64,000 nucleotides of DNA, from contig CAIKMZ010000086.1 in the NCBI GenBank assembly GCA_903828665.1, forward strand, positions 1 to 64,000, read 5' to 3'. Of the stretch, positions 17,621 to 51,116 are shown one piece after another; the first letter of the stretch is position 1, and each line of letters starts with the position of its first letter. This stretch comes from an uncultured beta proteobacterium (lineage in GTDB: Bacteria > Pseudomonadota > Gammaproteobacteria > Burkholderiales > Burkholderiaceae_C). The notes under the pieces are model-generated. The model saw only the letters and a program-made list of their open reading frames with translations, was not told the origin of the DNA and made no database searches. Made by a program: the position numbers and the translations under genes.

Positions 17621-19321
17621 GTGAACTCAACCACTCCCGCCATCGTTGCCCAGGGCGCCGTGCGCCGCTTGCCGCGCGTGGCACTGCTGCTGCTTTGCAT
17701 CGCCTACGTGCTGCCGGGGTTTTTTGGCCGCGACCCCTGGAAAGGCGCGGACATTGCGGCCTTCGGCTACATGGCCGAACTCTCGCGTGGTGCCAGCGAC
17801 TGGATGGCGCCGCATTTGCTCGGCATGCCGCCCGAGGTTGATGCGCTGCTGCCCTACTGGCTTGGCGCCTGGGCCATGCAAATCGCGCCGGCCTGGATCG
17901 CCACCGACTTTGCCGCGCGCATCCCGTTCGGCCTGCTGCTGGCGCTGGCACTGGCAGCCACCTGGTACGGCACCTACTACCTGGCGCGCAACACGGATGC
18001 CCAGCCCGTCGCCTTTGCCTTTGGCGGCGAGGCCCTGCCACCCGACTATGCCTGCGCCATGGCGGACGGGGGCCTGCTGGCCTTCATCGCCTGCCTGGGC
18101 CTGGCGCAGCTGTCGCACGAAACAACTCCGGCCATGGCGCAACTGTGCTTTGCCGCGCTGTCCTTTTTCGCCCTAGCCGCCCTGCCCTACCGCACGGTCA
18201 TGCCGGTGCTTGCGGGCGTGCTGGGGCTCGTCGGTCTGACCCTGTCGGGCGCACCCACGGTTGCGCTGCTGCTGGGCAGTGGCGGGGCCCTGATTCACGG
18301 ACTGGACCGCAGCCCCGGACGCAAGGCCGCTTCGCAACAGATCTGGTGGGCTGCGGGCATTGCGCTCATCACGGCGCTGGTGGCCTGGCTCGCGCTGCGG
18401 CTCGATCTGTGGCGCTGGCGCATCGAGCTGCCCGAGGCCAACTGGACCGAGTGGCGCAGTCTCGGACGATTGCTGCTGTGGTTCACCTGGCCGGCCTGGC
18501 CGCTTGCGCTGTGGACCGTGTGGCGCTGGCGGCACCAGTTGATTCGTCGCGCCATGCCGAGCCGGCATCTGGCCGTGCCGCTGTGGCTGGCCGGCATCGC
18601 CATCGGCGCGACGCTCACCACCGGATCAGCCGATCGCTCGCTGCTGCTGGCCCTGCCCGCGCTGGCGGCGCTGGCCGCGTTTTCCCTGCCAACGCTCAAA
18701 CGCAGCGTTTCCGCGCTGGTGGACTGGTTCACATTGCTGTTCTTCACGGGCTGGGCCGTTGTCATCTGGGTTATCTGGATCGCCCTGCAGACTGGCGTGC
18801 CGCAACAACCGGCGGCCAACGTGGCGCGGCTGGCACCCGGTTTCCAGCACAGCTTTTCACTGCTTCCCTTCCTGATTGCCGCCGTCGCCACGCTGGCCTG
18901 GGCTTGGCTGGTGAAGTGGCGGGTGGGACGCCACCGCAGTGCGATTTGGAAGAGCCTGGTCCTGCCCGCCGGCGGCGCAACGCTGTGCTGGCTGCTGCTA
19001 ATGACGCTATGGCTGCCGCTGCTTGATTTTGCGCGCAGCTACGCGCCTTTGGTTCACCGCGCCATGGTGATCATGCCGCGCGCCACTTGCATCGAGACGC
19101 ATGGCCTGAGCCGTGGCCAGATCGCAGCCTTCCAGTTGCACGGCCACGTGCGCGTCAACATCATCGACGCTCAAGGCAGCTGCCCCTGGCTCGTCGTGCA
19201 CAAGGATGCCTTGAACACGCTGTCGAAAAGTGTGGATCTGGCCAACTGGAAACTGCAGGGCAACATCCGCCACCCGATCGACCGCGACGAGGACCTGCTG
19301 ATTTACCGCCGCGTCAACTGA
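17621..19321 (+). CDS. large polytopic membrane protein, ArnT/GT39-like
   Basis: 566 residues from a GTG start. About ten or more hydrophobic segments run through the protein, with a periplasmic C-terminal domain (ARATCIETHGLSRGQIAAFQ; SCPWLVVHKDAL; DEDLLIYRRVN). The first loop FFGRDPWKGADIAAFGYMAE has the acidic residues found in the first periplasmic loop of lipid-linked sugar transferases of the ArnT/PMT type. From memory, a similar protein follows rpmE in many Burkholderiales. A role in modifying cell-envelope glycans is inference. Its end overlaps the convergent phoR gene by eight bases. Confidence 0.62.
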   Translation: MNSTTPAIVAQGAVRRLPRVALLLLCIAYVLPGFFGRDPWKGADIAAFGYMAELSRGASDWMAPHLLGMPPEVDALLPYWLGAWAMQIAPAWIATDFAARIPFGLLLALALAATWYGTYYLARNTDAQPVAFAFGGEALPPDYACAMADGGLLAFIACLGLAQLSHETTPAMAQLCFAALSFFALAALPYRTVMPVLAGVLGLVGLTLSGAPTVALLLGSGGALIHGLDRSPGRKAASQQIWWAAGIALITALVAWLALRLDLWRWRIELPEANWTEWRSLGRLLLWFTWPAWPLALWTVWRWRHQLIRRAMPSRHLAVPLWLAGIAIGATLTTGSADRSLLLALPALAALAAFSLPTLKRSVSALVDWFTLLFFTGWAVVIWVIWIALQTGVPQQPAANVARLAPGFQHSFSLLPFLIAAVATLAWAWLVKWRVGRHRSAIWKSLVLPAGGATLCWLLLMTLWLPLLDFARSYAPLVHRAMVIMPRATCIETHGLSRGQIAAFQLHGHVRVNIIDAQGSCPWLVVHKDALNTLSKSVDLANWKLQGNIRHPIDRDEDLLIYRRVN

Positions 19322-20675
19322 TCGCAGGCAACTGCTGCGCCCTGCAGCGACCGGCCGGAAAGATGATCGAAAAGACCGAGCCCTTGCCCGGTGTGCTCTG
19401 AATGCCAAGCTCCGCACCATGACGCTGCGCCACGTGCTTGACGATGGCCAGACCGAGGCCGGTGCCACCGGTGTCGCGCGAGCGGCTGTGGTCCACGCGG
19501 TAGAAGCGCTCGGTCAGGCGCGGAAGATGTTCCGGCGCAATGCCGGGACCGGTGTCCGTAACGGAAAACTCGGCCCGACCGTCAGACAAGGGCAGCCAGC
19601 GCACCACGATGTCGCCACCGGCCGGTGTGTAGCGAATGGCATTGCCGACCAGATTACTCATGGCACTGAACAGTTCGTTGCCGGCCCCTGCAATCTCGCC
19701 GCCAGCTTGGTAATCAAACACCAGCGCATGCACGCGCTGCGCTGCCGGATTGAGGGCGGCGGACAAGGCCCTGGCGTCCTGCTCGATCTGCTGCATCAAG
19801 GCCGGCACGGCGATCCAGTCCGACAGACCGGGCGGCGGACTTCCCTCCAGTCGGGACAGGGTCAGCAGGTCGCTCACCAGGATCTGCATGCGATCGGCCT
19901 GCTGCGCCATCAGGGCCAGATAGCGTTCCCGCTCCGGCTCGGTCAATGCGCAGGTCTGCAGGGTCTCGACAAAGCCGCTGAGCACGGTGAGCGGTGTGCG
20001 GATTTCATGCGAGACATTGGCCACGAAGTCGCGCCGCATCGCGTCCGCTTGCTCCAGGGCCGTGACATCGCGCGACAGCAGCAGCAGACGGCCGCGGCCA
20101 TAGGGATAGAGGTGGACCGAGAGCCGGACCGGCCGCGCCGACGTGTTCTCGCGCCCCGGCATGAGCAGTTCGTCGCGGTAGTCGTGCCCGGCAAAATAAC
20201 GCACGAAGCCAGGCTCGCGCACCAGATTGCCGATGTGCTGCAGCATGTCTCGCTGCGCGTCCAGACCGAAGTGCGTGGCAGCGGTCTCGTTGAACCACTC
20301 GATGCTGCCCTGTGCGTCGAGCAGCATGACACCATTGGGCGAGGCCTGGAACGCGAGCAGAAAGTCCTGCAGCCGGTTCTGGCTGTCGCGCAGTTGGCGC
20401 TCCCGGCCCAACACCAGGCGACGCGTCCGCGCCGACACCTCGCCCCACAGTCCGGTGCTGATCGCCACTTCCGAAACATCGCCGGCACGCAACCAGCGCA
20501 ACACGCGCGACGCACGCGACCAGTCGATCAGAAACCAGACCAGGCCGCCGAACAGGATGCCTACCGCCAGCCCTTCCCACTCGGTCGCTGCGATGCCGCT
20601 TCGCAATGCGGCAAACCAGCCAGCCGATCCACCGGCTAGCAAACAGGCAACAAAGAAAAGAACGCGCCAGAACAT
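19314..20675 (-). CDS. phoR: phosphate regulon sensor histidine kinase PhoR
   Basis: 453 residues. Two N-terminal membrane segments (about 1-55) with almost no periplasmic loop are followed by a linker and a PAS domain (LQDFLLAFQASPNGVMLLDAQG). The dimerisation/phospho-acceptor motif FVANVSHEIRTPLTVLSGF has the catalytic His. The ATPase carries NLVGNAIRYTP, DTGPGI and GTGLGLAIVKH. PhoR senses phosphate status through the Pst transporter and PhoU, then phosphorylates PhoB. It is the last gene of the leftward pst-pho run, 49 bp after phoB. Confidence 0.96.
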   Translation of the reverse strand: MFWRVLFFVACLLAGGSAGWFAALRSGIAATEWEGLAVGILFGGLVWFLIDWSRASRVLRWLRAGDVSEVAISTGLWGEVSARTRRLVLGRERQLRDSQNRLQDFLLAFQASPNGVMLLDAQGSIEWFNETAATHFGLDAQRDMLQHIGNLVREPGFVRYFAGHDYRDELLMPGRENTSARPVRLSVHLYPYGRGRLLLLSRDVTALEQADAMRRDFVANVSHEIRTPLTVLSGFVETLQTCALTEPERERYLALMAQQADRMQILVSDLLTLSRLEGSPPPGLSDWIAVPALMQQIEQDARALSAALNPAAQRVHALVFDYQAGGEIAGAGNELFSAMSNLVGNAIRYTPAGGDIVVRWLPLSDGRAEFSVTDTGPGIAPEHLPRLTERFYRVDHSRSRDTGGTGLGLAIVKHVAQRHGAELGIQSTPGKGSVFSIIFPAGRCRAQQLPAIS

Positions 20676-20724
20676 GGTCAGAACGGCTAACCCGTGCTTT
20701 TCTGGTCAATGCAAATGGAAATTG

Positions 20725-21441
20725 TCATTGCGCAGATGACGCTGCCTGCACGACGTGCGCCGTCAGCCGGTAACCGGCACCGCGCACGGTCTCGATCATT
20801 TGCCCCGCGCTGGCACCAAGCGCCTCGCGAAGGCGCTTGACATGGACGTCGACGGTCCGCTCCTCGATGAACACATGATCGCCCCACACCTTGTCCAGCA
20901 ACTGGGAGCGGCTGTGCACGCGTTCGGCGTGGGTCATCAGGTAGTGCAGCAGCTTGAACTCGGTCGGACCGAGCTTGAGCATCTGGTCGTTGAAGGCGAC
21001 GCGGTAGGTCGACGAATCCAGCGACAAGGCGCCCACCGCCACCACGCCACCGACCTGCTCGGGCGCGCGCCGGCGCAGCACGGCGCGCACTCGGGCCAGC
21101 AATTCCTTGGTGGAGAACGGCTTGACGATGTAGTCGTCCGCGCCGGCGTCGAGCCCGGACACGCGGTCGCTCTCATCGCTGCGTGCTGTCAGCATGATGA
21201 TGGGAACCGCCTTGGTGCGCGGGTTGGCGCGCCAGCGCTTGGCCAGCGTCAAACCACTCTCGCCAGGCAGCATCCAATCGAGCAGGATCACATCGGGCAG
21301 CACGTCGTCGAGTTCGCGCTGGGCCGAGGCACTGTCCATGGCCCAGGTCGGGCGAAAACCGTTGTGGCGCAGGTTGACGGCGATCAGTTCGGCGATGGCC
21401 GGTTCGTCTTCGACAATCAGCACGCCCGGTTGCTGCCTCAT
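20725..21441 (-). CDS. phoB: phosphate regulon response regulator PhoB
   Basis: 238 residues. The receiver domain shows IVEDEP, the phospho-acceptor region DVILLDWMLPGESG and the KPFS lysine. The C-terminal winged-helix DNA-binding domain has LLDKVWG...EERTVDVHVKRLRE. It binds paired 7-bp Pho repeats and recruits sigma-70 polymerase. Several such sites are visible across the next 30 kb. Its ATG overlaps the phoU stop by four bases (ATGA). Confidence 0.97.
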   Translation of the reverse strand: MRQQPGVLIVEDEPAIAELIAVNLRHNGFRPTWAMDSASAQRELDDVLPDVILLDWMLPGESGLTLAKRWRANPRTKAVPIIMLTARSDESDRVSGLDAGADDYIVKPFSTKELLARVRAVLRRRAPEQVGGVVAVGALSLDSSTYRVAFNDQMLKLGPTEFKLLHYLMTHAERVHSRSQLLDKVWGDHVFIEERTVDVHVKRLREALGASAGQMIETVRGAGYRLTAHVVQAASSAQ

Positions 21442-22139
21442 TTCAACACCGACTCGATCTCTTCCATCGAGGTGTGTCGGATGTCGGCACCCTTGACGAC
21501 GTAGATGATGAACTCCGCAATGTTCTTCGCATGGTCGCCGATGCGCTCGATGGCCTTGGCCAGAAAGAGCAGGTCCAGGCTTGGCGAGATCATGCGCGGG
21601 TCTTCCATCATGTAGGTGATGAGCTTGCGCACAAAGCCGTTGAACTCCTGGTCGATCTGGTCGTCTTCTTTCAGGATCGACACCGCGGCTGCCGTATCGA
21701 GCCGGGCAAAGGCATCAAGCGCCTTGCGCAGCAACCCCGAAGCCATGTCCGCTGCCACCCGCAACTCAAGCGCCGGCAAGGAACGCGGCGAGCCGCTGTC
21801 GATAATGGAGCGCACCATGCGCGCCATCTTCTCGGCCTCGTCGCCGACCCGCTCCAGGTTCGCCGTGGTCTTGGAGATCGCGATCAACAGGCGCAGGTCG
21901 CGCGCGGTCGGCTGGCGCCGGGCAATGATGCTCGAGAGTTCGCGGTCGATGTCGACCTCCATGGCATTGACGCGGGCTTCGGTTGCCGTCACCGCGTTCG
22001 CCGCCTCGACGTCGAATTGGGACAGCGCGTAGATGGCCTGGCGGATCTGCGATTCCACCAGGCCGCCGAGTTCCATGACCCGGGTCGAGACCGCGCTGAG
22101 TTCGCTGTCGAACTGCGTTGAGAGATGTTTTTCAGGCAT
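21438..22139 (-). CDS. phoU: phosphate signalling protein PhoU
   Basis: 233 residues with the two tandem three-helix PhoU repeats. Metal-binding ExxxD-type motifs are visible (for example NLERVGDEAEKMAR and IERIGDHAKNIAEFIIY). It links the PstSCAB transporter with PhoR, keeping PhoB off when phosphate is plentiful. AAGGGG lies before the ATG. pstB ends ten bases upstream, and phoB overlaps its stop. Confidence 0.97.
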   Translation of the reverse strand: MPEKHLSTQFDSELSAVSTRVMELGGLVESQIRQAIYALSQFDVEAANAVTATEARVNAMEVDIDRELSSIIARRQPTARDLRLLIAISKTTANLERVGDEAEKMARMVRSIIDSGSPRSLPALELRVAADMASGLLRKALDAFARLDTAAAVSILKEDDQIDQEFNGFVRKLITYMMEDPRMISPSLDLLFLAKAIERIGDHAKNIAEFIIYVVKGADIRHTSMEEIESVLK

Positions 22140-22148
22140 GATTTCCCC

Positions 22149-22928
22149 TTATCCGAACCGACCGGTAATGTAGTCTTCCGTTTCCTTGCGCGTGGGCTTG
22201 AAGAATATCTGCTCGGTCGAACCAAACTCGATCAAATCACCCAGGTACATGTAGGCCGTGTAGTCGCTGCAGCGCGCCGCCTGCTGCATATTGTGGGTCA
22301 CGATCACGACGGTGTAGTCGCGCTTGAGTTCGGTGATCAGTTCCTCGACCTTGGCCGTCGAGATCGGATCGAGCGCTGAGCACGGCTCGTCGAGCAGCAG
22401 CACTTCAGGCCTGATGGCGATGCCGCGCGCAATGCACAGGCGCTGCTGTTGGCCACCCGACAGGCTGGAGCCGCTTTGGCCGAGCTTGTCTTTGACCTCG
22501 CCCCACAAGGCGGCCTTGCGCAGCGCCCACTCGACACGCTCTTCCATGTCGGTCGTGCTCAGCGATTCGAACAGCTTGACGCCGAAGGCCACGTTATCGT
22601 AGATCGACATCGGAAACGGCGTCGGTTTCTGGAACACCATGCCGACCTTGGCACGCAACAGCGCCACATCCTGCTTGCTGGTCAACAGGTTCTCGCCATC
22701 GAGCAGCACCTCGCCCTGCGCGCGCTGCTCGGGATAGAGCTCGAACATGCGGTTGAAGACGCGCAGCAGGGTTGACTTGCCGCAGCCCGAAGGCCCGATG
22801 AAAGCGGTCACCTTGTTTTCCGGAATTTCCAGGTTGATGCCCTTGAGCGCGTGAAACTTTCCGTAGAAAAAATTCAGATCCTTGACGGCAATCTTGGTCG
22901 TCTCGCGGGTGGCTACAGCGGCAGTCAT
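22149..22928 (-). CDS. pstB: phosphate ABC transporter ATP-binding protein
   Basis: 259 residues. Walker [11 protein letters not shown]-loop [16 protein letters not shown], signature [14 protein letters not shown] and Walker [12 protein letters not shown] are all intact. It powers high-affinity phosphate import with PstA, PstC and PstS. The gap to pstA is 38 bp. Confidence 0.98.
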
Positions 22929-22966
22929 GTTGGTACCTTGTTTCGTATCGTTGGCAAGCCTGGATC

Positions 22967-23851
22967 TCAGGACTTGTTGCGGGTGACAACCCGCGCCAGG
23001 ATGTTGAGCGCCAGCACGGCAATCGTGATGATGAACACGCCAGCCCAGGCCAGTTTCTGCCAGTTTTCGTAGGGACTCATGGCGAACTTGAAGATGGTCA
23101 CCGGCAGACTTGCCATCGGCTCGCTCAGGCTTGAAGTCCAGAACTGGTTGCTCAGCGCGGTGAACAGCAGGGGTGCCGTTTCACCCGCGATGCGCGCGAC
23201 GGCCAGCAGGATGCCGGTGATGATGCCGGCACGGGCCGACTTCATGGTGATGCTGATGATCACTTTCCACTTCGGCGCCCCCAGGGCATAGGCCGCCTCG
23301 CGCAAACCGGGCGGCACCAGCTGCAACATGTTCTCGGTGGTGCGGATCACCACCGGAATGGCGATCAGGGCCAGCGCCATGATGCCGGCATAGCCGGAGA
23401 ATGATTTGAAGCGGGTGACCACCACCGCGTAGACAAAGAGGCCGATCACGATGGACGGCGCCGACAGCAGGATATCGTTGACGAAGCGCGTCGTCTGCGC
23501 CAAGGCACCCTTGGTATCGAATTCGGCGAGGTAGATGCCGGCCATGATGCCGATCGGCGTGCCGACAAAGGTCGCCAGCAGGACCATCAGGAACGACCCA
23601 TAAATGGCGTTCGCCAGGCCGCCCGCATCATTCGGCGGTGGCGTCATTTGTGTCAGCGTGTCGAGGGTGAGGCCACCGATGCCGAGGCGAATGGTCTCGA
23701 ACAGGATCCAGAACAGCCAGAACAGGCCAAAGGCCATGGCCAGCAGCGACAGCGTCAGGGCAACGCGGTTGATGCGCTTGCGCTGCGCGTAGCGCGTCTG
23801 ACGCATCTGATTCAAATCGGCCGCTTGCAGCAGGCGTTGCCCGGTTCTCAT
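22967..23851 (-). CDS. pstA: phosphate ABC transporter permease PstA
   Basis: 294 residues with six membrane spans. The N-terminus holds basic residues before the first span ([19 protein letters not shown]). The permease motif is in [20 protein letters not shown] (EAA loop). It forms the membrane channel with PstC. Its start overlaps the pstC stop by four bases. Confidence 0.97.
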
Positions 23852-24813
23852 GTCTTGGCCCCTTCGCCCTTGCGCAATTGGGCCAGCAGTACTTTGGACA
23901 AGGTCAATATCACAAACGTGATGAAGAACAAGACCAGACCCAGGTACATCAGCGCAGCCTGGTGCAGGCCGGCACCGGCCTCGGCGAATTCATTGGCCAG
24001 CGCCGACGTGATGCTGTTGGCGGCCTGGAACAGGCTGAGCGAATCGAGCTGATTGAAGTTGCCGATGACAAAGGTCACGGCCATGGTCTCGCCGATGGCA
24101 CGACCCAGACCCAGCATGATGCCGCCGATGACACCCGCCTTGGTGTAGGGAAGCACCACCGTGGAGACCACCTCCCACGTGGTAGCGCCCAGGCCGTAGG
24201 CCGACTCCTTGAGCAGGGTGGGCGTGACCTCGAAGACATCGCGCATGACCGAGGCGATGAACGGAATGATCATGATCGCCAGTATGATGCCGGCCGACAG
24301 GATACCGATACCGACCGGCGGGCCGGAAAAGAACGCACCCAGGTAGGGCACGTCGGAAAAAACAGCCTGCAGCGGCTGCTGCACATAGGTCGCCAGCAGC
24401 GGGCCGAACACGAGCAGACCCCACATACCATAGACGATGGACGGAATCGCAGCCAGCAGTTCAATCGCCGTGCCCAGGGGACGCTTGAGCCAGGCCGGAG
24501 AGAGCTCGGTCAGGAACAGGGCGATGCCGAAACTCACCGGCACCGCGATCAACAAAGCAATCAGCGAAGTCATCAGCGTGCCGTAAATCATGACCAGACC
24601 ACCGAACTCTTCCTTGACGGGGTCCCAGGTGGTGCTGGCGAGAAAGCTGAACCCATACTTGCTGATGGCCGGCCAGGCGCTGACCGTGAGCGAGACCAGA
24701 ATGGCCAGCAGCATTCCAAGCGTCAACCAGGCCGCACCCTTGGCCAGCCAGCCAAAGATGCGGTCGGCTAGAGGCCCGGAGCGGTTTGCCTTTGCTGGAG
24801 GAGGATTTGTCAT
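23848..24813 (-). CDS. pstC: phosphate ABC transporter permease PstC
   Basis: 321 residues from the ATG at 24813. The protein has six spans and the EAA loop [21 protein letters not shown]. The frame is open back to a GTG at 24879 that would add 22 residues ([18 protein letters not shown]) and has a GGGGCGGG stretch upstream, so that longer form is possible. A 96-bp gap separates it from pstS. Confidence 0.95.
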
Positions 24814-24909
24814 GGCGCGCCCGGAAAGCCTTGCAGATGGATGAACAGGCAACTGATTCGCCGGAAGTGTAGTTGACACAGACCCGCCCCTGGAAAAAGT
24901 CGCGCTGCC

Positions 24910-25953
24910 TTACTTCAAAGCAACCGGCTTGCCAGACGCATCAGTGGTATGCGACCAGGCCTTCTCGATCGAAGCAATCACATTGGCCGGCATCGGAACG
25001 TAGTCCAGATCGGTTGCACTCTTGCCACCGTTCTTGTAGGCCCAGGAAAAGAACTTAAATGCTTCCGTGGCATTGGCCGGCTTGTCCTGCTTCGTGTGCA
25101 TCAGGATGAAGGTAGCGGTCGAAATCGGCCAGGCGTTCTTGCCGGGCTGGTCGGTGATGAGCTGATAGAACGACTTGTTCCAGTCGGCACCGGCAGCGGC
25201 GGCCTTGAATGCATCTTCATCAGGCGCGACGAACACGCCGTCCCGGTTCTTGAGCAAGGTGTAGGTCATCTTGTTCTGCTTGACATAGGAATACTCGACG
25301 TAGCCGATCGAATTGGGCAGACGATTGACGAAGGCGGCGACGCCCTCATTGCCTTTGCCACCGGCGCCGACCGGCCAGTTCACCGCTGTGCCCTCACCCA
25401 CCTTGGCCTTCCACTCGGCATGCACACGGCTCAGGTAGTTCGTGAAATTGAAGGTCGTACCGGACCCGTCGGCACGGCGCACCGGGGCAATGGCCGCATC
25501 GGGCAGTGCCAGCGTGGGGTTCAGTGCCTTGATGGCGGCGTCGTTCCATTTGGTAATCTTGCCGAGGTAAATGTCGCCGAGTACCTGGCCGTCGAGCTTC
25601 ATCTGACCCGGTGCGATGCCTTTGATGTTGATCACCGGAACGGTGCCACCGATGACGGTGGGAAACTGGAACTGGCCCTTGGCCTTGAGCACCTCATCGG
25701 TTTGCGGCATGTCAGACGCGCCGAAATCGACCGTCTTGGCATCAATCTGCTTGATGCCTGCACCGGAGCCGACCGACTGGTAATTGACCTTGACGCCGGT
25801 TGCCTTGTTGTATTCGGCCGCCCACTTTGCGTACAGCGGAGCCGGAAAGCTGGCACCGGCACCAGTGATTTCCTGCGCGGCCGCCAAGTTAAGGTAGGAC
25901 ATGGCAAGCACGCCCGCCACACTGATCAGGGAAATTTTGAAACTGGTCTTCAT
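24910..25953 (-). CDS. pstS: periplasmic phosphate-binding protein PstS
   Basis: 347 residues with a signal peptide (MKTSFKISLISVAGVLAMSYLNLAAA-Q). Phosphate-binding loops are visible: GAGASFPAPLY, VGSGAGIKQ, GASDMPQT and RRADGSGTTFNFTNYL. It captures phosphate in the periplasm and delivers it to PstCA. It heads the leftward pstSCAB-phoU-phoB-phoR run, and a very good Pho box lies 65 bp before its ATG. Confidence 0.98.
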   Translation of the reverse strand: MKTSFKISLISVAGVLAMSYLNLAAAQEITGAGASFPAPLYAKWAAEYNKATGVKVNYQSVGSGAGIKQIDAKTVDFGASDMPQTDEVLKAKGQFQFPTVIGGTVPVINIKGIAPGQMKLDGQVLGDIYLGKITKWNDAAIKALNPTLALPDAAIAPVRRADGSGTTFNFTNYLSRVHAEWKAKVGEGTAVNWPVGAGGKGNEGVAAFVNRLPNSIGYVEYSYVKQNKMTYTLLKNRDGVFVAPDEDAFKAAAAGADWNKSFYQLITDQPGKNAWPISTATFILMHTKQDKPANATEAFKFFSWAYKNGGKSATDLDYVPMPANVIASIEKAWSHTTDASGKPVALK

Positions 25954-26001: not shown

Positions 26002-26035
26002 ACTATAAGAAGGTTATATGACAGTGATGTGACAT
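26002..26035 (-). promoter_or_regulatory. Pho box and -10 for the pst-pho operon
   Basis: Read on the minus strand: ATGTCAC-ATCA-CTGTCAT (26035-26018), two 7-bp repeats with a 4-bp spacer, matching the PhoB consensus at 13 of 14 positions. Exactly ten bases later comes TATAGT (26007-26002), a good -10. This is the known geometry of PhoB-activated promoters, where PhoB replaces the -35. Confidence 0.92.
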
Positions 26036-26091
26036 CTTTGCGGTTTTGCAAACGGCCGATGGATCGCAAGCCCGGCCTTTCAGACATGCAG

Positions 26092-26125
26092 CTGTCACGT
26101 TTTCGTCAAAAAACGACCCTATTCT
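26092..26125 (+). promoter_or_regulatory. Pho box and -10 for ppk2
   Basis: CTGTCAC-GTTT-TCGTCAA (26092-26109): the first repeat is perfect, the second weaker. Ten bases on is TATTCT (26120-26125), a -10-like hexamer. The site lies inside an upstream extension of the ppk2 frame, so the gene must start later (TTG 26160). It is back to back with the pstS Pho box, 56 bp apart, so one PhoB-bound region may fire both ways. Confidence 0.75.
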
Positions 26126-26159: not shown

Positions 26160-27017
26160 TTGACTGCAATCAATGACGACTTGGTCCAGCGTATCCGACG
26201 CGACCTGGATGACAGCTACGACGAGGAGCTGGAACTGGAGCTGGAAGACCGAAATGTCGACGAACTCGCGCAAAGTTCGCTCGACACGGCGTCCAGGCAA
26301 TACAAGGAAAGCCGTCGCCGGTATTTTCGTGAACTGTTCCGGATGCAGGGTGAACTCGTCAAGCTGCAGGACTGGGTGGTCAAGACCGGGCACAAGGTCG
26401 TGATCCTTTTTGAAGGCCGCGACGCGGCCGGCAAAGGCGGTGTCATCAAGCGCATCACCCAGCGCCTGAATCCGCGCGTCTGTCGCGTGGCGGCCTTGCC
26501 GGCGCCGAACGCACGCGAACAAACCCAGTGGTATTTTCAGCGCTACGCAGCCCATCTGCCGGGGGCCGGTGAGATGGTGCTGTTCGACCGCAGCTGGTAC
26601 AACCGGGCCGGTGTCGAGCGGGTGATGGGCTTTTGCTCTGATGAACAATACGAGGAGTTCTTCCGAACCGTCCCCGAATTCGAAAAGATGCTGGTGCGCT
26701 CGGGCATCCAGCTCATCAAGTACTGGTTCTCCATCTCGGACGAGGAGCAGCATCTGCGCTTCATGGGCCGCATCCACGATCCGCTCAAGCAATGGAAGCT
26801 CAGCCCGATGGACATGGAGTCCAGGCGGCGCTGGGAGGAGTACACCAAGGCCAAGGAAATCATGCTGGAGCGGACCCACATTGCGCAGGCACCCTGGTGG
26901 ATGGTTCTGGCCGTGGACAAGAAGAAGGCCCGGCTCAATTGCATTCACCACCTGCTGCAACAGATTCCCTATGGCGAAATCGAACATCCGGCCATCGTGT
27001 TGCCGGAAGTCTATTGA
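26160..27017 (+). CDS. ppk2: polyphosphate kinase 2 family protein
   Basis: 285 residues. The P-loop EGRDAAGKGG and the second motif LFDRSWYNRAGVERVMGF are the PPK2 signature. A lid region (KYWFSISDEEQHLRFMGRI) follows. PPK2 of this one-domain class usually moves phosphate between polyphosphate and nucleoside diphosphates. I chose the TTG at 26160 (upstream GGCAGG) because the longer frame begins before the Pho box promoter. The acidic N-terminal stretch DDSYDEELELELEDRNVDE is unusual. It lies beside pstS, divergent, under its own Pho box. Confidence 0.93.
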   Translation: MTAINDDLVQRIRRDLDDSYDEELELELEDRNVDELAQSSLDTASRQYKESRRRYFRELFRMQGELVKLQDWVVKTGHKVVILFEGRDAAGKGGVIKRITQRLNPRVCRVAALPAPNAREQTQWYFQRYAAHLPGAGEMVLFDRSWYNRAGVERVMGFCSDEQYEEFFRTVPEFEKMLVRSGIQLIKYWFSISDEEQHLRFMGRIHDPLKQWKLSPMDMESRRRWEEYTKAKEIMLERTHIAQAPWWMVLAVDKKKARLNCIHHLLQQIPYGEIEHPAIVLPEVY

Positions 27018-27028: not shown

Positions 27029-27073
27029 GGTCACCAAGCCGTCACGAAACCGTCACGAAACCTTTGTACGCTC
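27029..27073 (+). promoter_or_regulatory. triple Pho box before the fasciclin lipoprotein gene
   Basis: AGGTCAC-CAAG-CCGTCAC-GAAA-CCGTCAC (27029-27057): three repeats on an exact 11-bp step, the last two matching the consensus at 6 of 7 each. Ten bases later is TACGCT (27068-27073), a weak -10. The ATG follows 45 bp after the box. Confidence 0.85.
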
Positions 27074-27102: not shown

Positions 27103-27585
27103 ATGTTCACTCGCCGCGCCTTAGCTCTTTCCCTCGTTGCGCTTGCGCTGGCCGGTTGCGCCAGTGTGCCGGCACCGGTTTCAGTTGCCGACAGCATCGC
27201 GAAAAACCCGTCGCTGAGCACGCTGGACGGCCTGCTGGGCCAGGCTGGCCTGAACGCCACACTGCAAGGCAGCGGCCCATTCACCGTGTTCGCACCCAGC
27301 AACGAAGCCTTCAAGGCGGTGCCTGCCAAGACCATGGACGACCTGGCCAAACACCCGGACAAGCTCAAGGATCTCTTGACCTTCCACGTTGTGGCCGGAA
27401 GACTTACCGCCGCCGAAATCAAGAATTCTTCTGTCAAGACCGTCAACGGCGCCGAACTGGCGCTATCCAAGGCTGGCGAATTCGTCACGGTTGAGCAGGC
27501 TCTGGTCCAGACCGCCGATATCGCCGCCAGCAACGGCGTGATTCACATCATCGACAGCGTTCTGATCCCGCCGCCCAAGAAGTAA
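27103..27585 (+). CDS. fasciclin (FAS1) domain lipoprotein
   Basis: 160 residues. A signal sequence ends in the lipobox LAGC with Cys19. The FAS1 domain shows its two conserved blocks: FTVFAPSNEAFKAVP near residue 66 and, at the end, SNGVIHIIDSVLIP. FAS1 domains mediate surface adhesion or protein contacts. The short linker after the Cys and the absence of an Asp at +2 are compatible with outer-membrane location. It has its own strong three-repeat Pho box, so it should be made under phosphate shortage; why is unknown. Confidence 0.9.
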   Translation: MFTRRALALSLVALALAGCASVPAPVSVADSIAKNPSLSTLDGLLGQAGLNATLQGSGPFTVFAPSNEAFKAVPAKTMDDLAKHPDKLKDLLTFHVVAGRLTAAEIKNSSVKTVNGAELALSKAGEFVTVEQALVQTADIAASNGVIHIIDSVLIPPPKK

Positions 27586-38858: not shown

Positions 38859-38892
38859 ATTGTTTGGTTGCTTGATGACAGTGGTGTGACAG
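38859..38892 (-). promoter_or_regulatory. Pho box and -10 for ppk1-sixA
   Basis: On the minus strand CTGTCAC-ACCA-CTGTCAT (38892-38875), a 14 of 14 match. Ten bases later AACAAT (38864-38859) stands in the -10 place. It is the best Pho box in the window. Confidence 0.9.
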
Positions 38893-40676: not shown

Positions 40677-40705
40677 ATGACGACTTGATGGCGGAAAGAT
40701 GGCAG
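40677..40705 (-). promoter_or_regulatory. degenerate triple Pho box before olsB-plcP
   Basis: On the minus strand CTGCCAT-CTTT-CCGCCAT-CAAG-TCGTCAT: three 7-bp units on an exact 11-bp step (6, 5 and 5 of 7 to consensus), 44 bp before the TTG start. No convincing -10 hexamer stands ten bases after the last unit, so it is weaker evidence than the other boxes. Confidence 0.5.
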
Positions 40706-40726
40706 TTTGATGAAACGACGATTGCG

Positions 40727-42239: not shown

Positions 42240-44450
42240 TCAGAAGTCCAGCGTCGCTGTCAGTGAAACATTGCGACCCGGCGTGACGGTCAACAAATCT
42301 TTGGCCGACGGTGCCGCGCTGGAACTGCCAGCGGTGGCCGAAGCAATGCCGACGATGGCATGGCTGTCGAACAGGTTGTTGACGCCGAATTGAAGTTTGA
42401 GCTGCTTGGCGAAGTCTGCCGGCTTCTTGATCGTGTAATTGACATACAGGTTGGCCACCGTCACGGGATCAATCACGAAGGCTTCATGCGTTCCGTCCTT
42501 GGCGTCGTTGTAGAGGCGCCCAACCCGATTCGCCGACAGGCTGGCGGCCCAGCCGTTGCGCTCATAGTTCAGGGCTAAGGCTTGTGTGGTGTTAGGCGCG
42601 CCGGCCACCCATTGCCCGTTCTCGTATTTCAGGCTGCCTATCGTCACATTCGCGTACAGGCTGAAGCCTGCGCCAAGCACAAAGTTGGCTTCAGCTTCAA
42701 TCCCCTGGTTCACTTCGGTGCCGCTGAGAACGTAGCCGACGTTGCCGGCACTGTCCGGTGGCAGGGCCGTGTAGGCGCCATCGAGCTTGGTGTGGTAGAC
42801 GTCTGCGGCCAGCGTCAGGTCAGCCGCATTCCAGACCGTGCCGACTTGTGTCGTCGTCGCCTTGGTCGCCTTGGGCGCCGGCGATACCAGCGCGTTCTTC
42901 ACGTCAAAGACGCTGGTGCTCGGAATCTGGTCGCCGATCGCATATTGTCCGTAGACACTCCAGTTCGGACGGATGTTGTAGTGCACATCGAGAGAGGGCA
43001 TCACATCCGTGTAGGTAATGGAGTTGACTAGGCTGGGCGCGCCGCCTGTGATGGTGCCGGTGGCGGCGTTATATACGCCGCCGAGCGTGCCAACAGCGCC
43101 GCCGTTGTCCTGAAGATGGACAAAGTCCTGCTTGTAGGACGCGTACTTGACGCCAGGCGTTACCTTCAGGTCCTTGCCGACTTTGACCTCGTATTCCAGG
43201 TAGGGCTGGACCGTCGTCGTCTGGTAGGTCTCGGTGAAGTTCGGCGCCGGCGTGTCAACCCAGGTCCGGGGATCCGAGGGAATCTGGTAGCGACGACTGT
43301 CCGCCCGCTCCAGCCACAGGCCGGTGCGCAAAGTGCCAATGTCGGTTTCATTGCTCAGGCGCAGCAGGTTGCCGAAGGTCGTGTAGGAGTTGAGCTTGTC
43401 GATGGCACTGGTCGTGGTGATGACGGTTGCGCTGTTGTTGTAGTTCTGCTTGTTCCAGTAGCGGTAGGTGTAAACCTTGTCTTCGAGTTTCCAGCCGCCA
43501 CCGAGCATGGTGGAAATGCCGGCATAGACAAAATCGGTCGAAATATCGTAGAAGTTGTAGCCGTAATAGTTAGGCTTGGTCGGGTCGCCACTGAGCAGCG
43601 TGATGTAGTCGCCCGCGGTGTAGCTGGAACGAGCAATGCCCTTGATGGACGGCGTGTTGTTCTTCAGGTTCAGGTAGGAGGCGAATACCGTGAAGGTCGA
43701 ACCACCCGTGTTCTCATACTGGTACTTGCCCGAGACCGCCTTGCGATCCTGCAGGTTGAAGGTCTGGTAACCATCCGATTTCATTTCATGCACGTTGAAA
43801 AGCAGGTTCGACTTGCCGTCCGGGCCAATCTGGCCGGTTTCATGCTCAAGGCCGATCAGCCTGGTATTCCAGGAACCACTCGACAGTTCGACACTGGTAC
43901 GCGGCTCGGCTTCGAGCACGCGCGAGCGGAAGTCGACACTGCCGCCAAAAGTGGCTTGCCCGAAGGTCGATGCACCGCCAGGGCTGCGGTCCACCACGGC
44001 ACCACCAATGAACTGGCTCGGGAAAAAGACTCAGGAGTGGTGGCTGACGCCATTCGTGTCGTTGAACGGAATGCCGTCGAAACTGAAAACGGTGTTACTG
44101 TCTGAGAGGCCACGGATGGTGACCTTGGCGTCGCCCAGACCAACGCCGTTGGGCGACGAGCTAAAGACACCGGGCGTCATAGAAATAGTCTGCGTGTAGT
44201 CGGCGACCGGCGAGGTGTAGTTGCGGATGAACTGGTCCGACACGACCGACTGCGCGGAGCGCGCCGCAAGCGAATTCATCGAGGGCGCAGTCTCGGCCGA
44301 AGCGGCCTGCCCGGTGATGACAACGGCGCTCAGATTGACGGTGGATTCCGACTGCGCAAAACAGGGTGCGGCGGCGAAGAGAATGGCCACGGCACGCGAA
44401 ACGTTCAGGACATTGGACTTGAGACGGGGCTTTTGGATAGTTTTGGACAT
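42240..44450 (-). pseudogene. TonB-dependent outer-membrane receptor, interrupted by one in-frame TGA
   Basis: The 736-codon gene has a signal peptide (...AVAILFAAAPCFA-Q), a plug domain (VSDQFIRNYTSPVADYTQTI, TPGVFSSSPNGVGLGDAKV, TIRGLSDSNTVFSFDGIPFN) and a complete beta-barrel ending in ...NVSLTATLDF. A TGA at 44033-44031 splits it after residue 139 in the motif NGVSHHS*VFFPSQFIGG. Frame is kept on both sides. One base change would restore TGG (Trp), the residue expected in related receptors. So this is a recent nonsense mutation, a sequencing error or a readthrough. Related receptors import metal or organic-phosphate compounds; its place next to a phosphatase suggests the latter (inference). 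Confidence 0.85.
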
Positions 44451-44582: not shown

Positions 44583-45164
44583 ATGCATGAATCCAATCTC
44601 ACGGCGCAGGCGCTCGCCGGTCGTTACGACGCAACAACCATCTTTCTGCACTGGCTGAGCGCCGCCTTGGTAATCGGGTTGTGGATTGCCGGCCAAAGCA
44701 TCGGTTTCTTCCCGCGCGGCGCGCCCCGCTTGACGGCCCGCAGCTCGCACATCACGGCGGGCGCGGTGCTCGGTGTTGTCCTGTTGATTCGGCTGGTCTG
44801 GCGCCACGCCGGCGGCACCCAATTGCCACGGACAGATGTTGGCATTCTGGGACGGGCTGCAGCGGGCATGCATCATCTTCTCTACGCAACACTGATCGCC
44901 ATCATCGTGATCGGCCTTGCCTGCGTCTGGATTCGTGGCGACACTGTTTTCAACTGGTTCACCGTTCCGGCATTCGATCCGGGCAACAAGGCGCTGCGAC
45001 ACAACGCGGTCGAATTGCACAGCCTAGTCGCCAACCTCTTGCTCAGCCTTGCCGGCATTCATGCGATCGCCGCAGCATGGCACTACCGCGTCTTGAAAGA
45101 TGGTGTCTTGCAGCGCATGCTGCCGCGATTGGCGGCGCCGACGAGGAAAAAGTCATCAAACTGA
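44583..45164 (+). CDS. cytochrome b561-type membrane protein
   Basis: 193 residues with four predicted spans. The pattern YDATTIFLHWLSAALVIGLW, SSHITAGAVLGVVLLIRLVWR, MHHLLYATLIAIIVIGLA and HSLVANLLLSLAGIHAIAAAWHY places the four heme-binding His residues in spans 1, 2, 3 and 4. It passes electrons between the membrane quinone pool and a partner, or quenches superoxide; the partner is not evident. First gene of a rightward run with a zinc-ribbon protein, dgkA and a glycosyltransferase. Confidence 0.88.
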   Translation: MHESNLTAQALAGRYDATTIFLHWLSAALVIGLWIAGQSIGFFPRGAPRLTARSSHITAGAVLGVVLLIRLVWRHAGGTQLPRTDVGILGRAAAGMHHLLYATLIAIIVIGLACVWIRGDTVFNWFTVPAFDPGNKALRHNAVELHSLVANLLLSLAGIHAIAAAWHYRVLKDGVLQRMLPRLAAPTRKKSSN

Positions 45165-45212
45165 AATCTTGGCCCGCAAGAATCAGATCTTTGATATCAC
45201 GTGTGCCCGGCC

Positions 45213-45431
45213 ATGTACAAATCTGAAGACACCAGGATCGCCGCAAGTGGCTTGCGCTATACGACGAAGGAGAGCGGATCTCCCTTTCAGGGCATGGGTG
45301 GCTCTGGCGAGACGCTGAGCTGCATCCAGTGCGGCCGGCACCGGCTGCGGCGCAACGGCTCATTCCGGCGCTACCTGCAGGCCTTGTGGTTCTATTGCGT
45401 CGACTGCAAGCCACGTCAGGCGGCGCAATGA
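45213..45431 (+). CDS. small zinc-ribbon protein
   Basis: 72 residues. Two CxxC pairs (CIQCGRHR near residue 37 and CVDCKP at the end) make a likely zinc ribbon; the intervening RRNGSFRRYLQALWFY is basic. The N-terminal half seems disordered. Function unknown. Its stop overlaps the dgkA start by four bases (ATGA), which supports real translation. Confidence 0.65.
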   Translation: MYKSEDTRIAASGLRYTTKESGSPFQGMGGSGETLSCIQCGRHRLRRNGSFRRYLQALWFYCVDCKPRQAAQ

Positions 45432-45829
45432 GCAAGACCAAGCTCATGCAATCAACCAGCATCGAAAGTCCGCACAAGGGAAAAAGAGGCATCCGGCGAC
45501 TGCTCAATGCTTTCGGCTACTCGTGTTCCGGACTGCAGGAAGCCTTTCGCAACGAAGATGCTTTCCGCCAGGAGGTGCTGCTCGCAGGTGTGCTGATTCC
45601 GTTGGCGTTTCTGATCGAGCAGCACATGCTCGGCCGCGCACTGATGATCGCCTGCGTGCTGTTGCTACTCATCGTCGAGTTGATCAATTCGGCCATCGAA
45701 GCGACGGTGGACCGGATCTCGCTGGACGACCACCGCCTGGCCAAGCGTGCCAAGGACATCGGCAGCGCAGCCGTGCTGATCAGCCTGCTCAATCTCCTAG
45801 TCGTCTGGGTGCTGGTGCTGCTGAACTGA
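45428..45829 (+). CDS. dgkA: diacylglycerol kinase
   Basis: 133 residues with three membrane spans. The DgkA signatures are SGLQEAFRNEDAFRQEV and ELINSAIEATVDRISLDDH, with the catalytic Glu and Asn in place. It phosphorylates diacylglycerol to phosphatidic acid at the inner membrane. The N-terminus is about 15 residues longer than in E. coli. Next to a glycosyltransferase that may use diacylglycerol and 6 kb from a PlcP-like diacylglycerol producer, it would compete for or recycle the same substrate (inference). Confidence 0.94.
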   Translation: MSKTKLMQSTSIESPHKGKRGIRRLLNAFGYSCSGLQEAFRNEDAFRQEVLLAGVLIPLAFLIEQHMLGRALMIACVLLLLIVELINSAIEATVDRISLDDHRLAKRAKDIGSAAVLISLLNLLVVWVLVLLN

Positions 45830-45884: not shown

Positions 45885-47093
45885 ATGAAGATCCTGTTTG
45901 TCTCTGACGTCTATTTCCCGCGGGTCAACGGCGTCTCCACATCGATCGAGACCTTCCGACGTAACCTGCGCGCACTCGGACATACCGTCCACCTGATTGC
46001 GCCGGACTACGCCGCGCAGAGCGCCGATGAATCGGACATCGTGCGAGTGCCGGCGCGGCAGGTGCCGCTGGACCCGGAAGACCGGTTCATGCGCTACGGT
46101 TGGGTCATGCGGCAGCTCGACCGATTGCGCGACGAGCAGTACGACATCATCCACGTGCAGACCCCTTTCGTCGCGCACTACCTGGGCCTGCGACTGTCCC
46201 ACCTGCTGGGGATCCCGTGCGTCGAGACCTATCACACGTTTTTTGAAGAGTACCTGTACCACTACATTCCCCTTGTTCCGAAGCGCCTGATGCGCTATCT
46301 CGCCAAGCTCTTTTCGCGTCATCAGGGCAACAGTCTGGACGGCATGGTGGTGCCGTCAAAACCGATGTTGCGCGTCTTGAAGAGTTACGGCATCACGACC
46401 CGGGCCGAGGTCATCCCGACCGGCATCGAGCCGCAGAGTTTCGTGTTCGGAAGCCGGTCCGTCTTCCGGGAGAAGTTCGGCATTGCGCCGGACCGACCGA
46501 TGCTGCTGTTTGTCGGACGGGTGGCGCACGAGAAGAACATCAGCTTTCTTCTCAGGGTCGTCGAACAGGTCAAGAGCGCAATCCCCGACGTCCTCTTGGT
46601 CATCGCTGGCGAGGGGCCGGCCCGCTCCGGCTTGGAACAGGATGCGAAGAAGCTCGGCCTTGGCGAGACCGTGCGGTTCATCGGCTACCTGGATCGCGAC
46701 ACCGAACTCAACAGCTGCTATCGCGCCGCCGATGTATTCATATTTTCTTCGCGAACGGAAACGCAGGGACTGGTGCTGCTCGAAGCGATGGCGCAGGGCG
46801 TGCCGCTGGTGTCGATCGCCGAGATGGGGACGCGCGATGTGTTGAAGGATGGCCTTGGCGTCTGGATTGCTCGCGAGGAGGTGAGCGACTTTTCTGTCAA
46901 GGTCGTCACGCTGCTGAGCAACGCGCAAATGCGCCGGGAACTGGGTGATGCAGGCCGCGACTATGCGAACGAATGGTCTGCAGCCAAGCAGGCGCAGCGG
47001 ATGCTGGCCTTCTACGGGCGTGTTCTTGGTCTTGCCAACGAAGGTCAGGCAACGCAGCACACCGATCAGGCGGTTCCTGAAACCGGGTTCTGA
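45885..47093 (+). CDS. GT4 glycosyltransferase, candidate diacylglycerol glycosyltransferase
   Basis: 402 residues. The N-terminal Rossmann half starts MKILFVSDVYFPRVNGVSTSIETF, typical of GT4 enzymes that transfer sugar to lipid acceptors. The second half has LLFVGRVAHEKNISFLL (nucleotide-sugar site) and the EX7E motif ETQGLVLLE. Related GT4 enzymes make mono-glycosyl-diacylglycerol, including those induced by phosphate shortage in Agrobacterium. Position downstream of dgkA and near plcP supports this; mannosyl transfer to another lipid is the main alternative. Its last 28 bases overlap the convergent RHH gene. Confidence 0.78.
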   Translation: MKILFVSDVYFPRVNGVSTSIETFRRNLRALGHTVHLIAPDYAAQSADESDIVRVPARQVPLDPEDRFMRYGWVMRQLDRLRDEQYDIIHVQTPFVAHYLGLRLSHLLGIPCVETYHTFFEEYLYHYIPLVPKRLMRYLAKLFSRHQGNSLDGMVVPSKPMLRVLKSYGITTRAEVIPTGIEPQSFVFGSRSVFREKFGIAPDRPMLLFVGRVAHEKNISFLLRVVEQVKSAIPDVLLVIAGEGPARSGLEQDAKKLGLGETVRFIGYLDRDTELNSCYRAADVFIFSSRTETQGLVLLEAMAQGVPLVSIAEMGTRDVLKDGLGVWIAREEVSDFSVKVVTLLSNAQMRRELGDAGRDYANEWSAAKQAQRMLAFYGRVLGLANEGQATQHTDQAVPETGF

Positions 47094-49865: not shown

Positions 49866-49883
49866 CTGACACGGCGCTGTCAC
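49866..49883 (+). promoter_or_regulatory. Pho box before the 38-residue ORF and olsA
   Basis: CTGACAC-GGCG-CTGTCAC, 13 of 14 positions match. The hexamer ten bases on is TAACTT, a weak -10. The ATG of the small ORF follows 53 bp after the box. Confidence 0.8.
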
Positions 49884-49936: not shown

Positions 49937-50053
49937 ATGCCAAATCAAACCACCTACTTTCGCATCGTAGCCATCCCGGCCTGCATGATCTGGGGCCTGC
50001 TCGAGTTCTTCGCCCTGCAGCGCGCACGCTTTCAAATCCGTCGCACGCAATAG
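49937..50053 (+). CDS. 38-residue membrane ORF upstream of olsA
   Basis: ATG to TAG encodes 38 residues with one hydrophobic segment (FRIVAIPACMIWGLLEFFAL) and a basic tail (QRARFQIRRTQ). It sits directly after a Pho box and ends four bases before the olsA ATG, so the two are likely coupled. Similar short ORFs with WGLxEFxALQ in front of acyltransferases occur in relatives as I recall. No strong ribosome site is visible. Function unknown; it could anchor or regulate OlsA. Confidence 0.6.
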   Translation: MPNQTTYFRIVAIPACMIWGLLEFFALQRARFQIRRTQ

Positions 50054-50057: not shown

Positions 50058-51116
50058 ATGCGAGTCATGCTTAACCAACCCATAGCGCCAAGCACGACAA
50101 GCGCAACCGTACGCGTCGCTGGTCGCAGCTTCCAACTCGTCAAACTGCTGCGTTTGGCGATCGAGTTCATCCGTGGCGGGTTTCTGCTGCGCCGGCAATT
50201 TCCGCAACTACAACAGGATAAAAGGCTCGAGGCGATACAAGGCTGGGCCCGAAGGGTACTGCAGGTCCTGGAAGTTGAAGTCGTGTGCAACAAACTGGCG
50301 CCCGCGAACTTTGCCGGCCTTGTGGTTGCCAATCACGTTTCATGGCTTGACGTGCTCGTCATTCAGTCACTGATGCCCGGCATCTTCGTTGCCAAGTCCG
50401 AGGTCCGGCGCTGGCCACTGATTGGCGCCATGGCACAGGCCTGCCAGACCATCTTTGTCGACCGCGCCTCGGCACGGTCGGCCCATGCCATGGTCGACAG
50501 CACCGTGGACGCCTTCGGGCAGGGAACCACCGTAGTCGCGTTTCCCGAGGGCACCAGCAGCGACGGCGCTGAGGTGGGCAGCTTTCACGCCAACATCTTT
50601 GAAGGCGCCATCCGCTCGCGCACCGATGTCCAGCCATTGACCTTGCGCTATCTCGACGCCGATACCGGCATGCCTGCCACGGCCGCCATCTTCACTGGCG
50701 ACATGTCGCTGTTGTCGTCGCTGCGGCAAGTGCTGGCCACATCGACGATCAGAACCCAGGTGCATATGGGAAATCTGATCGCTGCGCACGGGCACAGCCG
50801 CAAATCACTTTCGCAGCAGGCCCATCGATCGATCCAGTCGCGTTTGCCACCCTCAAGCACGAAAGGTGAAGGCGTCCTAATGCCGCAGCAAGGCGGCCCG
50901 CAGTTGCGGCAGCGCGGCGCGCATCGCGGCCCGGCCCGCTTCGATGGCGCTGCGGCGCGCGCCAAAATCTGCGCTGGAAACACCGAGCAGTGCCGGGCGA
51001 ACCACGACGTCGGCTTCGCGCAACTCGAAGGTGTTGATGCTCTTGCTCATGATGGAAAACGTCTGCAGCAGGATCTGCAGCGTGTCGCTGGCCGCGTTGC
51101 TCTCCGGTGCGTCTGA
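50058..51116 (+). CDS. olsA: OlsA/PlsC-like acyltransferase with a read-on C-terminal tail
   Basis: 352 codons. Residues 1-265 are a normal 1-acyl-glycerol-3-phosphate/lyso-ornithine-lipid acyltransferase: NHVSWLDVLVI (catalytic HxxxxD), FVDRASARSA, FPEGTSSDGAEVGSFH and QPLTLRYLD. A Pho box upstream and an olsB-like gene 10 kb away favour the OlsA role, which adds the second acyl chain of ornithine lipids. The family normally ends near SQQAHRSIQSRL. Here no stop is met until 51116, adding about 80 low-quality residues and overlapping the convergent patatin gene by 240 bp. A frameshift or a lost stop is likely. A TAA in the next frame lies at 50878. Confidence 0.82.
   Translation: MRVMLNQPIAPSTTSATVRVAGRSFQLVKLLRLAIEFIRGGFLLRRQFPQLQQDKRLEAIQGWARRVLQVLEVEVVCNKLAPANFAGLVVANHVSWLDVLVIQSLMPGIFVAKSEVRRWPLIGAMAQACQTIFVDRASARSAHAMVDSTVDAFGQGTTVVAFPEGTSSDGAEVGSFHANIFEGAIRSRTDVQPLTLRYLDADTGMPATAAIFTGDMSLLSSLRQVLATSTIRTQVHMGNLIAAHGHSRKSLSQQAHRSIQSRLPPSSTKGEGVLMPQQGGPQLRQRGAHRGPARFDGAAARAKICAGNTEQCRANHDVGFAQLEGVDALAHDGKRLQQDLQRVAGRVALRCV

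Follow-up and report, generated by a model that had tools for sequence, protein, structure and literature searches.

Predicted PhoB boxes, putative lipid-switch genes and a candidate structured RNA in a phosphate island of a Rhodoferax-type bacterium

Results

Gene content of the island

The window analyzed here is a 64,000-nucleotide (nt) stretch from an uncultured beta proteobacterium (GCA_903828665.1, contig CAIKMZ010000086.1, our C86). The source assembly comprises 3.74 Mb and is 98.5% complete. The host is a Rhodoferax-type bacterium of the Comamonadaceae, the family to which we take Rhodoferax and the other named relative genera to belong. Between positions 19314 and 51116, the window holds a phosphate island with genes for phosphate uptake, polyphosphate metabolism and, putatively, phosphorus-free lipids, together with predicted PhoB boxes and a three-way-junction RNA element at 36111-36186 (+). 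Relatives are cited by our handles for genomes and loci, such as G007 and L114.

The gene calls of the original prediction held when the window proteins were matched to NCBIfam and Pfam. The pstS-pstC-pstA-pstB-phoU-phoB-phoR genes (19314-25953, -; order from pstS towards phoR) encode proteins that each scored above at least one NCBIfam cut-off. They are followed on the plus strand by ppk2 (26160-27017), a fasciclin-domain lipoprotein-like gene (fas1, 27103-27585) and ppx/gppA (27682-29187), for which the window shows no separate PhoB box. With 305.8 bits, Ppx narrowly missed one NCBIfam cut-off of 307. The phoA gene and the genes for a 158-amino-acid (aa) exported-looking protein, an ABC ATPase and an FtsX permease occupy 29860-34050 (-), and their reading frames overlap or touch. 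A CYTH-CHAD protein gene (34522-36021, +) converges with ppk1 and sixA (36256-38833, -), where PPK1 was again above its NCBIfam cut-off. Next come the genes for a PlcP-like metallophosphoesterase (38922-39788, -), OlsB (39785-40633, -; the longest frame extends to 40675) and a second exported metallophosphatase (40727-42154, -). The distal part carries znr (45213-45431, +), encoding a 72-aa CxxC...CxxC protein with four invariant Cys in 12 sequences, then dgkA (45428-45829, +) and a GT4 glycosyltransferase gene (45885-47093, +). A 38-aa membrane-peptide-like open reading frame (ORF) known from 10 aligned sequences (49937-50053, +) and olsA (50058-51116, +) close the island. Pfam cut-offs were exceeded for PPK2, fasciclin, DAGK, CYTH, CHAD, SixA-type His_Phos_1, alkaline phosphatase, FtsX and ABC_tran, and also for OlsB-type Acetyltransf_5, OlsA-type Acyltransferase, the GT4 domains and two Metallophos proteins.

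PhoB boxes in the window

We built a PhoB matrix from 53 pstS upstream regions, all from other genomes, and applied a threshold of 8 bits. Of the 56 regions gathered, that of the own genome, one identical and one without an obtainable upstream were left out. The seed was the PhoB-box consensus, which is also printed in PMC8528852. The scan yielded 16 sites of at least 8 bits in the window; 100 dinucleotide shuffles averaged 4.8 sites and reached at most 14. Eleven of the 16 were within 200 nt upstream of island genes, regions that make up 9.7% of the window. The 7+4+7 PhoB-type boxes proposed in the original prediction were thus more than chance. A strict box pattern occurred 10 times genome-wide, three times in the island, and the reversed control gave 0.

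The highest scores were found for the boxes of the pst-pho operon (26018-26035, -; 26.9 bits, 64 nt from pstS) and of ppk1-sixA (38875-38892, -; 24.8 bits, 41 nt from ppk1), and ppk1 has a second site of 8.6 bits. The 38-aa ORF and olsA are preceded by a box of 13.6 bits (49866-49883, +; 53 nt from the small ORF), which is also upstream of a divergent M14 peptidase gene. Two sites lie upstream of phoA (34099-34116, -, 9.9 bits; 34159-34176, +, 14.5 bits), with a site-to-start distance of 48 nt. Upstream of ppk2, two sites of 8.6 and 8.0 bits overlap (26081-26109, +; 50 and 61 nt from the start), and fas1 has a site of 8.8 bits at 46 nt (27039-27056, +). The znr-dgkA-GT4 site (45150-45167, +; 8.4 bits) precedes the zinc-ribbon ORF znr, the first gene of the operon, by 45 nt. 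For phoB, the matrix scan of the window gave no individual site. A box of 13.7 bits (36074-36091, +) precedes no protein gene; the RNA element follows it. Beyond the island, a PhoB-type site of 12.4 bits was noted at 59313-59330 (+), near a gene at 57823-59169 (-).

Conservation of the boxes in relatives

Upstream regions of orthologues were counted in two ways. The looser count accepted either strand and took the highest-scoring site within 250 nt, and the stricter count the best forward site 10-120 nt upstream, both at 8 bits or more. The window was among the loci, and four duplicate records were dropped. Sites between divergent genes count for both genes and so are not independent. By the looser count, sites were present for ppk1 in 69/79, olsB in 71/112, olsA in 12/13, fas1 in 9/9, the zinc-ribbon ORF in 5/9 and ppk2 in 4/9 orthologues. 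The value for pstS (40/40) is not independent, as pstS was the training gene. Control genes gave 3/59 (plcP), 3/71 (sixA), 0/33 (pstA), 0/36 (pstC), 2/26 (pstB), 1/16 (phoU), 0/13 (phoB) and 1/8 (phoR), and 1-6% of the shuffled upstreams of the non-control genes had a site. The stricter count retained 37/40 for pstS, 62/79 for ppk1 and 49/112 for olsB, and the five operon-internal controls plcP, sixA, pstA, pstC and phoB together gave 0/212. The 38-aa ORF before olsA had a forward box 38-62 nt upstream in 10/10 orthologues. Predicted PhoB sites at pstS, ppk1, olsB and the small ORF-olsA unit therefore recur in relatives far above controls. The check on box conservation proposed with the original prediction thus came out positively at ppk1, olsB and the small ORF. 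The evidence is thinner for znr-dgkA-GT4.

The two small ORFs have features of their own. The 38-aa ORF shows an invariant C, G and E and an LQR.R motif across the 10 sequences, with a PhoB box on each. In the window it precedes olsA, and in G071 and G076 the RNA element lies downstream of it. In G002, G020 and G022, a homologue of the 72-aa znr product is encoded immediately before the RNA element and sixA; the structure model of the 72-aa protein has a pLDDT of 72 and a pTM of 0.46.

Clustering across relatives

Clustering was assessed on the best 80 loci of at least 583 confirmed olsB stretches, with 10-kb flanks; 64 of these loci exceeded 15 kb. In the 64 long loci, the genes found within about 10 kb of olsB were ppk1 (54), sixA (54), ppx (46), plcP (42) and pstS (32). 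The frequent order was olsB-plcP-GT4-ppk1-sixA-(lysine/alanine-rich protein)-ppx-pstSCAB-phoU-phoB-phoR, often ended early by the 10-kb flank. Among 14 olsB loci from other genera in the order, eight had plcP, ppk1, ppx, pst-pho or dgkA nearby, five had only an OlsA-like acyltransferase gene and one had none of these. The arrangement is not constant within the genus: the pst-pho and olsB genes share a contig in the window, G028 and L114, but are far apart in G010. The original prediction described the lipid switch as laid out beside the phosphate genes in this betaproteobacterium. The adjacency was indeed seen, but the layout is not special to the source organism; by gene order, it is a habit of the family.

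A 177-aa lysine/alanine/proline-rich protein, encoded beside ppx in the window (29281-29814, +), was found near olsB in 33 of the 64 long loci. It matched no Pfam or NCBIfam model and appeared histone-H1-like by eye.

Identity of the lipid-switch genes

The best NCBIfam model was OlsB for the OlsB protein (166.4 bits, cut-off 350), OlsA for the OlsA protein (122.3 bits, cut-off 300) and alpha-monoglucosyldiacylglycerol synthase for the GT4 enzyme (156.9 bits, cut-off 400). Since the specific models stayed below their cut-offs, the product specificities of OlsB, OlsA, GT4 and Ppx are predicted ones, and the lipid chemistry of the island is likewise putative. We regard the PlcP-like protein as a putative PlcP. 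In libraries without a PlcP model, its Metallophos domain passed and its scores against the LpxH models (44.6 and 36.2 bits) were far below the cut-offs (134 and 190). A search for an LpxH paralogue with the PlcP-like protein returned only the query, although LpxH may be too distant to be found in this way.

We also considered that the PlcP-like and GT4 proteins serve other steps, for example in lipid A or polysaccharide synthesis, so that no phosphorus-free glycolipid would be formed. The weak LpxH-type similarity (44.6 bits) agrees with this, as does the only solved relative, an LpxH chain (E 0.006). The window GT4 also matches models for other acceptors, and it is not the orthologue of the GT4 adjoining plcP in most relatives, being about 30% identical to it. 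Close orthologues of the window GT4 (71-79%) were found in G007, G030 and L114. However, the LpxH cut-offs are far above the scores obtained, and the plcP-like gene overlaps olsB here and stays near olsB and ppk1 across relatives. We consider this alternative unlikely. Thus, of the proposed lipid switch, the genes beside the phosphate genes and the recurring PhoB sites were found, while the glycolipid product of GT4 and the identity of PlcP remain predictions.

Structure and covariation of the RNA element

The RNA element, which the original prediction had missed, sits in the intergenic region where CYTH-CHAD and sixA converge, 19 nt downstream of the box at 36074-36091. A DNA search matched this intergenic stretch in 20 of 88 other same-genus genomes. 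Eighteen of these copies, the window and G022 were aligned without structure; the alignments do not include G017 (internal deletion) or G032 (28 nt outside the core). The copies fold into a three-way junction of P1 (GUUGGU/ACCAAC), P2 of about seven pairs and P3 (GCAU/AUGC with two more pairs). In this first alignment of 20 copies, 97.6% of the cells were paired, and 24 cells were double-changed, as compared with a shuffle mean of 7.0 (0/500 as high) and 0-4 in slid controls. A covariance model, R1, scored the window element at 86.9 bits. The 33-row R1 alignment, which leaves out G022 and the four copies of G680, G716, G783 and G841, was 95.6% paired and had 64 double-changed cells across 10 pairs (shuffle mean 17.1, 0/500 as high; slid controls 3-13). 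The 33 rows are biased towards the model, and shuffles are more readily surpassed by related sequences.

A conserved promoter or operator DNA element with no RNA function was weighed against these data. It would explain why the stretch sits immediately after a promoter. The folding advantage of single copies over shuffles is modest (z -0.3 to -1.6), and further pair types did not rise above shuffles (231/500 in the first and 53/500 in the 33-row alignment). The double-changed cells speak against it, as do the G-U pairs among the helix variants and the variable loops around a constant junction. We judge a pure DNA element to be very improbable; the compensatory base changes in the alignments strongly support a structured RNA.

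A small-protein reading of the stretch was rejected, because the window frame begins within the PhoB box and the copies differ in loop length by 1-3 nt and more. The window element had no match in Rfam 15 at E values up to 10. When 14 relative loci were compared with Rfam 15, the sole match at gathering score was a sucA motif elsewhere in L260. Like known RNAs in Rfam, the element is short, structured and bacterial and has a conserved junction, but none of the Rfam 15 models matched it.

Distribution and promoter of the RNA element

R1 was detected at E 0.01 or better in 30 of 89 same-genus genomes. Twenty-eight of these hits were strong, the own genome included, and two weak ones of about 30 bits (G018 and G067) were not used. 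G034 holds a second copy. Family samples gave R1 in 5/200 genomes and, in a larger sample, in 10/399, namely the own genome, G084 of the genus and eight from three other genera. An order sample gave 5/399, comprising the own genome and four weak hits (26-35 bits) that were not counted; the best of these lay in a repetitive stretch judged coding by eye. Because few candidates per genome are scored in large samples, these counts are lower bounds.

A TANNNT-type (-10-like) hexamer was found 4-9 nt before P1 in 31/33 copies, as compared with 19% in shuffles. An in-place PhoB box 17-23 nt upstream reached 8 bits in 17/33 copies (shuffles 0.06%) and 0 bits in 24/33 (shuffles 0.9%). It was clearly absent in eight of the 33, and the box of G030 was degraded. 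The placement of hexamer and box implies that the RNA should start at about P1. A box of at least 0 bits was seen in 23/28 genus copies and, among nine copies from other genera (four judged by eye), in G638 alone. By this distribution, predicted PhoB control characterizes the Rhodoferax copies rather than the RNA class as a whole.

Neighbors and possible roles of the RNA

A same-strand gene was identified within 300 nt downstream in 22 of 38 copies: D-Ala-D-Ala dipeptidase (10), TonB (7), SixA (3), PhoD-like (1) and CYTH-CHAD (1). The dipeptidase assignment is above its cut-off and PhoD below; in L202, TonB_C was found with a TonB-dependent receptor gene behind it. For the other 16 copies, the window included, no such gene was identified. 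A gene of the phosphate set, counting znr and the 38-aa ORF, was within 3 kb in 17/38 copies, with many contigs being short. G002 and G022 are near-identical contigs.

These contexts would suit a leader that acts in cis on the downstream gene, as a riboswitch-like element or an attenuator, the window copy being an orphan after loss of a tonB-receptor operon. The spacing to tonB is constant (86-87 nt in 6/7), and in G073 a terminator-like hairpin stands between the RNA and the phoD-like gene. G028 holds a truncated tonB and the window, by reading, none, as the orphan scenario would have it. In G783 and G841 (L284 4656-4783, -; L285 4741-4869, -), P3 bears a long, nearly perfect extra helix with the junction unchanged, as in structured aptamers. 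On the other hand, the downstream genes are highly diverse where identified at all, and the window copy retains its box, -10 hexamer and all helices despite having no same-strand gene. Terminators straight after the core in G638 and G590a would equally suit a free RNA. Altogether, we give the leader an even chance.

The same terminators, the own promoter in nearly all copies and the retention of the element between two convergent genes in the window would fit a free small RNA acting on other transcripts as part of the phosphate response. The close same-strand downstream gene in most identified contexts is at odds with such a role, which we regard as possible but somewhat doubtful.

Two riboswitch resemblances were noted around the RNA. 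In relatives, the leader between the RNA element and tonB contains a string that resembles part of a B12 riboswitch. A cobalamin riboswitch in the RNA-tonB leader was rejected, as Rfam gave no match in L205 (E up to 10) or in the 14 loci (gathering score). By eye, a ribosome-binding site plus a short ORF that overlaps tonB is the better reading of the string. In G680 (L282), the sequence downstream of the RNA element (4671-4745, -) may be a TPP riboswitch, judged by eye against the consensus.

Other genes in and around the island

Several genes, and the box at 36074-36091, were missing from the original prediction. The genes are one for cytochrome b561, a TonB-dependent receptor gene (42240-44450, -) and, between GT4 and olsA, the RHH, PfpI, 149-aa ORF and M14 peptidase genes. 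In the receptor gene, an in-frame stop separates the plug from the barrel; the same frame is open in 3/3 relatives compared (G007, G030 and G001). A PhoB-type site lies between this split gene and the cytochrome b561 gene (10.3 bits, 12 nt from the b561 start). The olsA frame is about 80 codons longer than in G007, G030 and G001 and overlaps an opposite-strand patatin gene.

Discussion

With the above results in hand, we interpret the stretch as a local concentration of the PhoB regulon that includes a proposed lipid switch and an embedded structured RNA, with a probability of roughly 80%. The genes, the boxes and their conservation, the clustering and the RNA covariation are grounded in the sequence data. 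From these we infer PhoB binding, induction, the lipid products and a role for the RNA.

Several observations weigh against this interpretation. Genes unrelated to phosphate break up the island, and in the one-contig congener G010 a distance of 1.3 Mb separates the pst genes from the ols genes. Of the 16 sites, five do not precede an island gene: 36074 (13.7 bits), 59313 (12.4), 40110 inside olsB (10.0), 7054 (9.0) and 17345 (8.1). The window scan gave no individual site for ppx, plcP, CYTH-CHAD or GT4. The olsB box of the window genome is weak (40699-40716, -; 5.8 bits), whereas those of orthologues are often higher; with the likely OlsB start at the TTG at 40633, this box would lie 65 nt upstream of olsB-plcP. 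For ppx, the looser count gave 37/60 and the stricter count 5/60. The former value mostly reflects the divergent pst box, given the scarcity of forward near sites. The idea of boxes before many of the genes thus stands for pstS, ppk1, phoA, the small ORF-olsA unit and others. It is weak for olsB and does not extend to ppx, CYTH-CHAD, plcP, phoB and GT4.

Lipid remodelling by PlcP and a glycosyltransferase, with Pho boxes and in several gene neighbourhoods, has been described for marine bacteria (PMC4796936) and Pseudomonas aeruginosa (PMC8528852). As far as the accessible parts of these papers go, the island shares with the PlcP-Agt systems a putative PlcP-type metallophosphoesterase, a GT4-type enzyme, predicted Pho boxes and a presumed low-phosphate logic. 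It differs in joining ornithine-lipid, polyphosphate and pst-pho genes. Its GT4 gene also stands apart from plcP, behind dgkA and the zinc-ribbon ORF. In Burkholderia sensu lato, the available part of PMC7814305 gives Pho boxes before olsB in 21/43 genomes and, by a new matrix for which its authors do not show the data, in 43/43. A betaproteobacterial olsB homologue with a predicted Pho box is common to both cases. Unlike in the Burkholderia data of that portion, the island olsB is accompanied by plcP and ppk1, and olsA is apart, behind the 38-aa ORF with its own box. Among the matches listed from the open-access literature searched, we found no report of a Comamonadaceae phosphate-lipid cluster or of an R1-type RNA, and the accessible part of a study on B. 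thailandensis small RNAs (PMC4035088) contained nothing matching the element. Pho boxes before olsB are therefore already known in betaproteobacteria; what may be a new class is the RNA.

We consider it probable that 36111-36186 represents an undescribed structured-RNA class, occurring in Rhodoferax and three other genera of the family. In Rhodoferax it would be made mostly from a PhoB-box promoter. It would thus form a noncoding arm of the phosphate-starvation response, as a leader or small RNA beside tonB-receptor, phoD-like, sixA, CYTH-CHAD and D-Ala-D-Ala dipeptidase genes, and the same regulon would hold the conserved 38-aa ORF.

In the proposed mechanism, a drop in phosphate would lead PhoR-PhoB to activate the operon that encodes it and the Pst transporter. 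Induction would extend to the polyphosphate kinases and to PhoA with its co-transcribed ABC/FtsX unit. The PlcP-like enzyme would remove headgroups to yield diacylglycerol, which DgkA and the GT4 enzyme could recycle or glycosylate, and OlsB with OlsA would form ornithine lipid. The embedded structured RNA would be made from its own promoter with a PhoB box.

The occurrence of phosphate uptake, polyphosphate and phosphorus-free-lipid genes as one neighbourhood in relatives predicts a coordinated remodelling of the membrane. For an RNA layer of the Pho response, the embedded element offers a concrete candidate: a covariance model and a predicted 5' end are at hand, and it occurs in many natural contexts. 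Other candidate members of the same regulon are the 38-aa and 72-aa ORFs.

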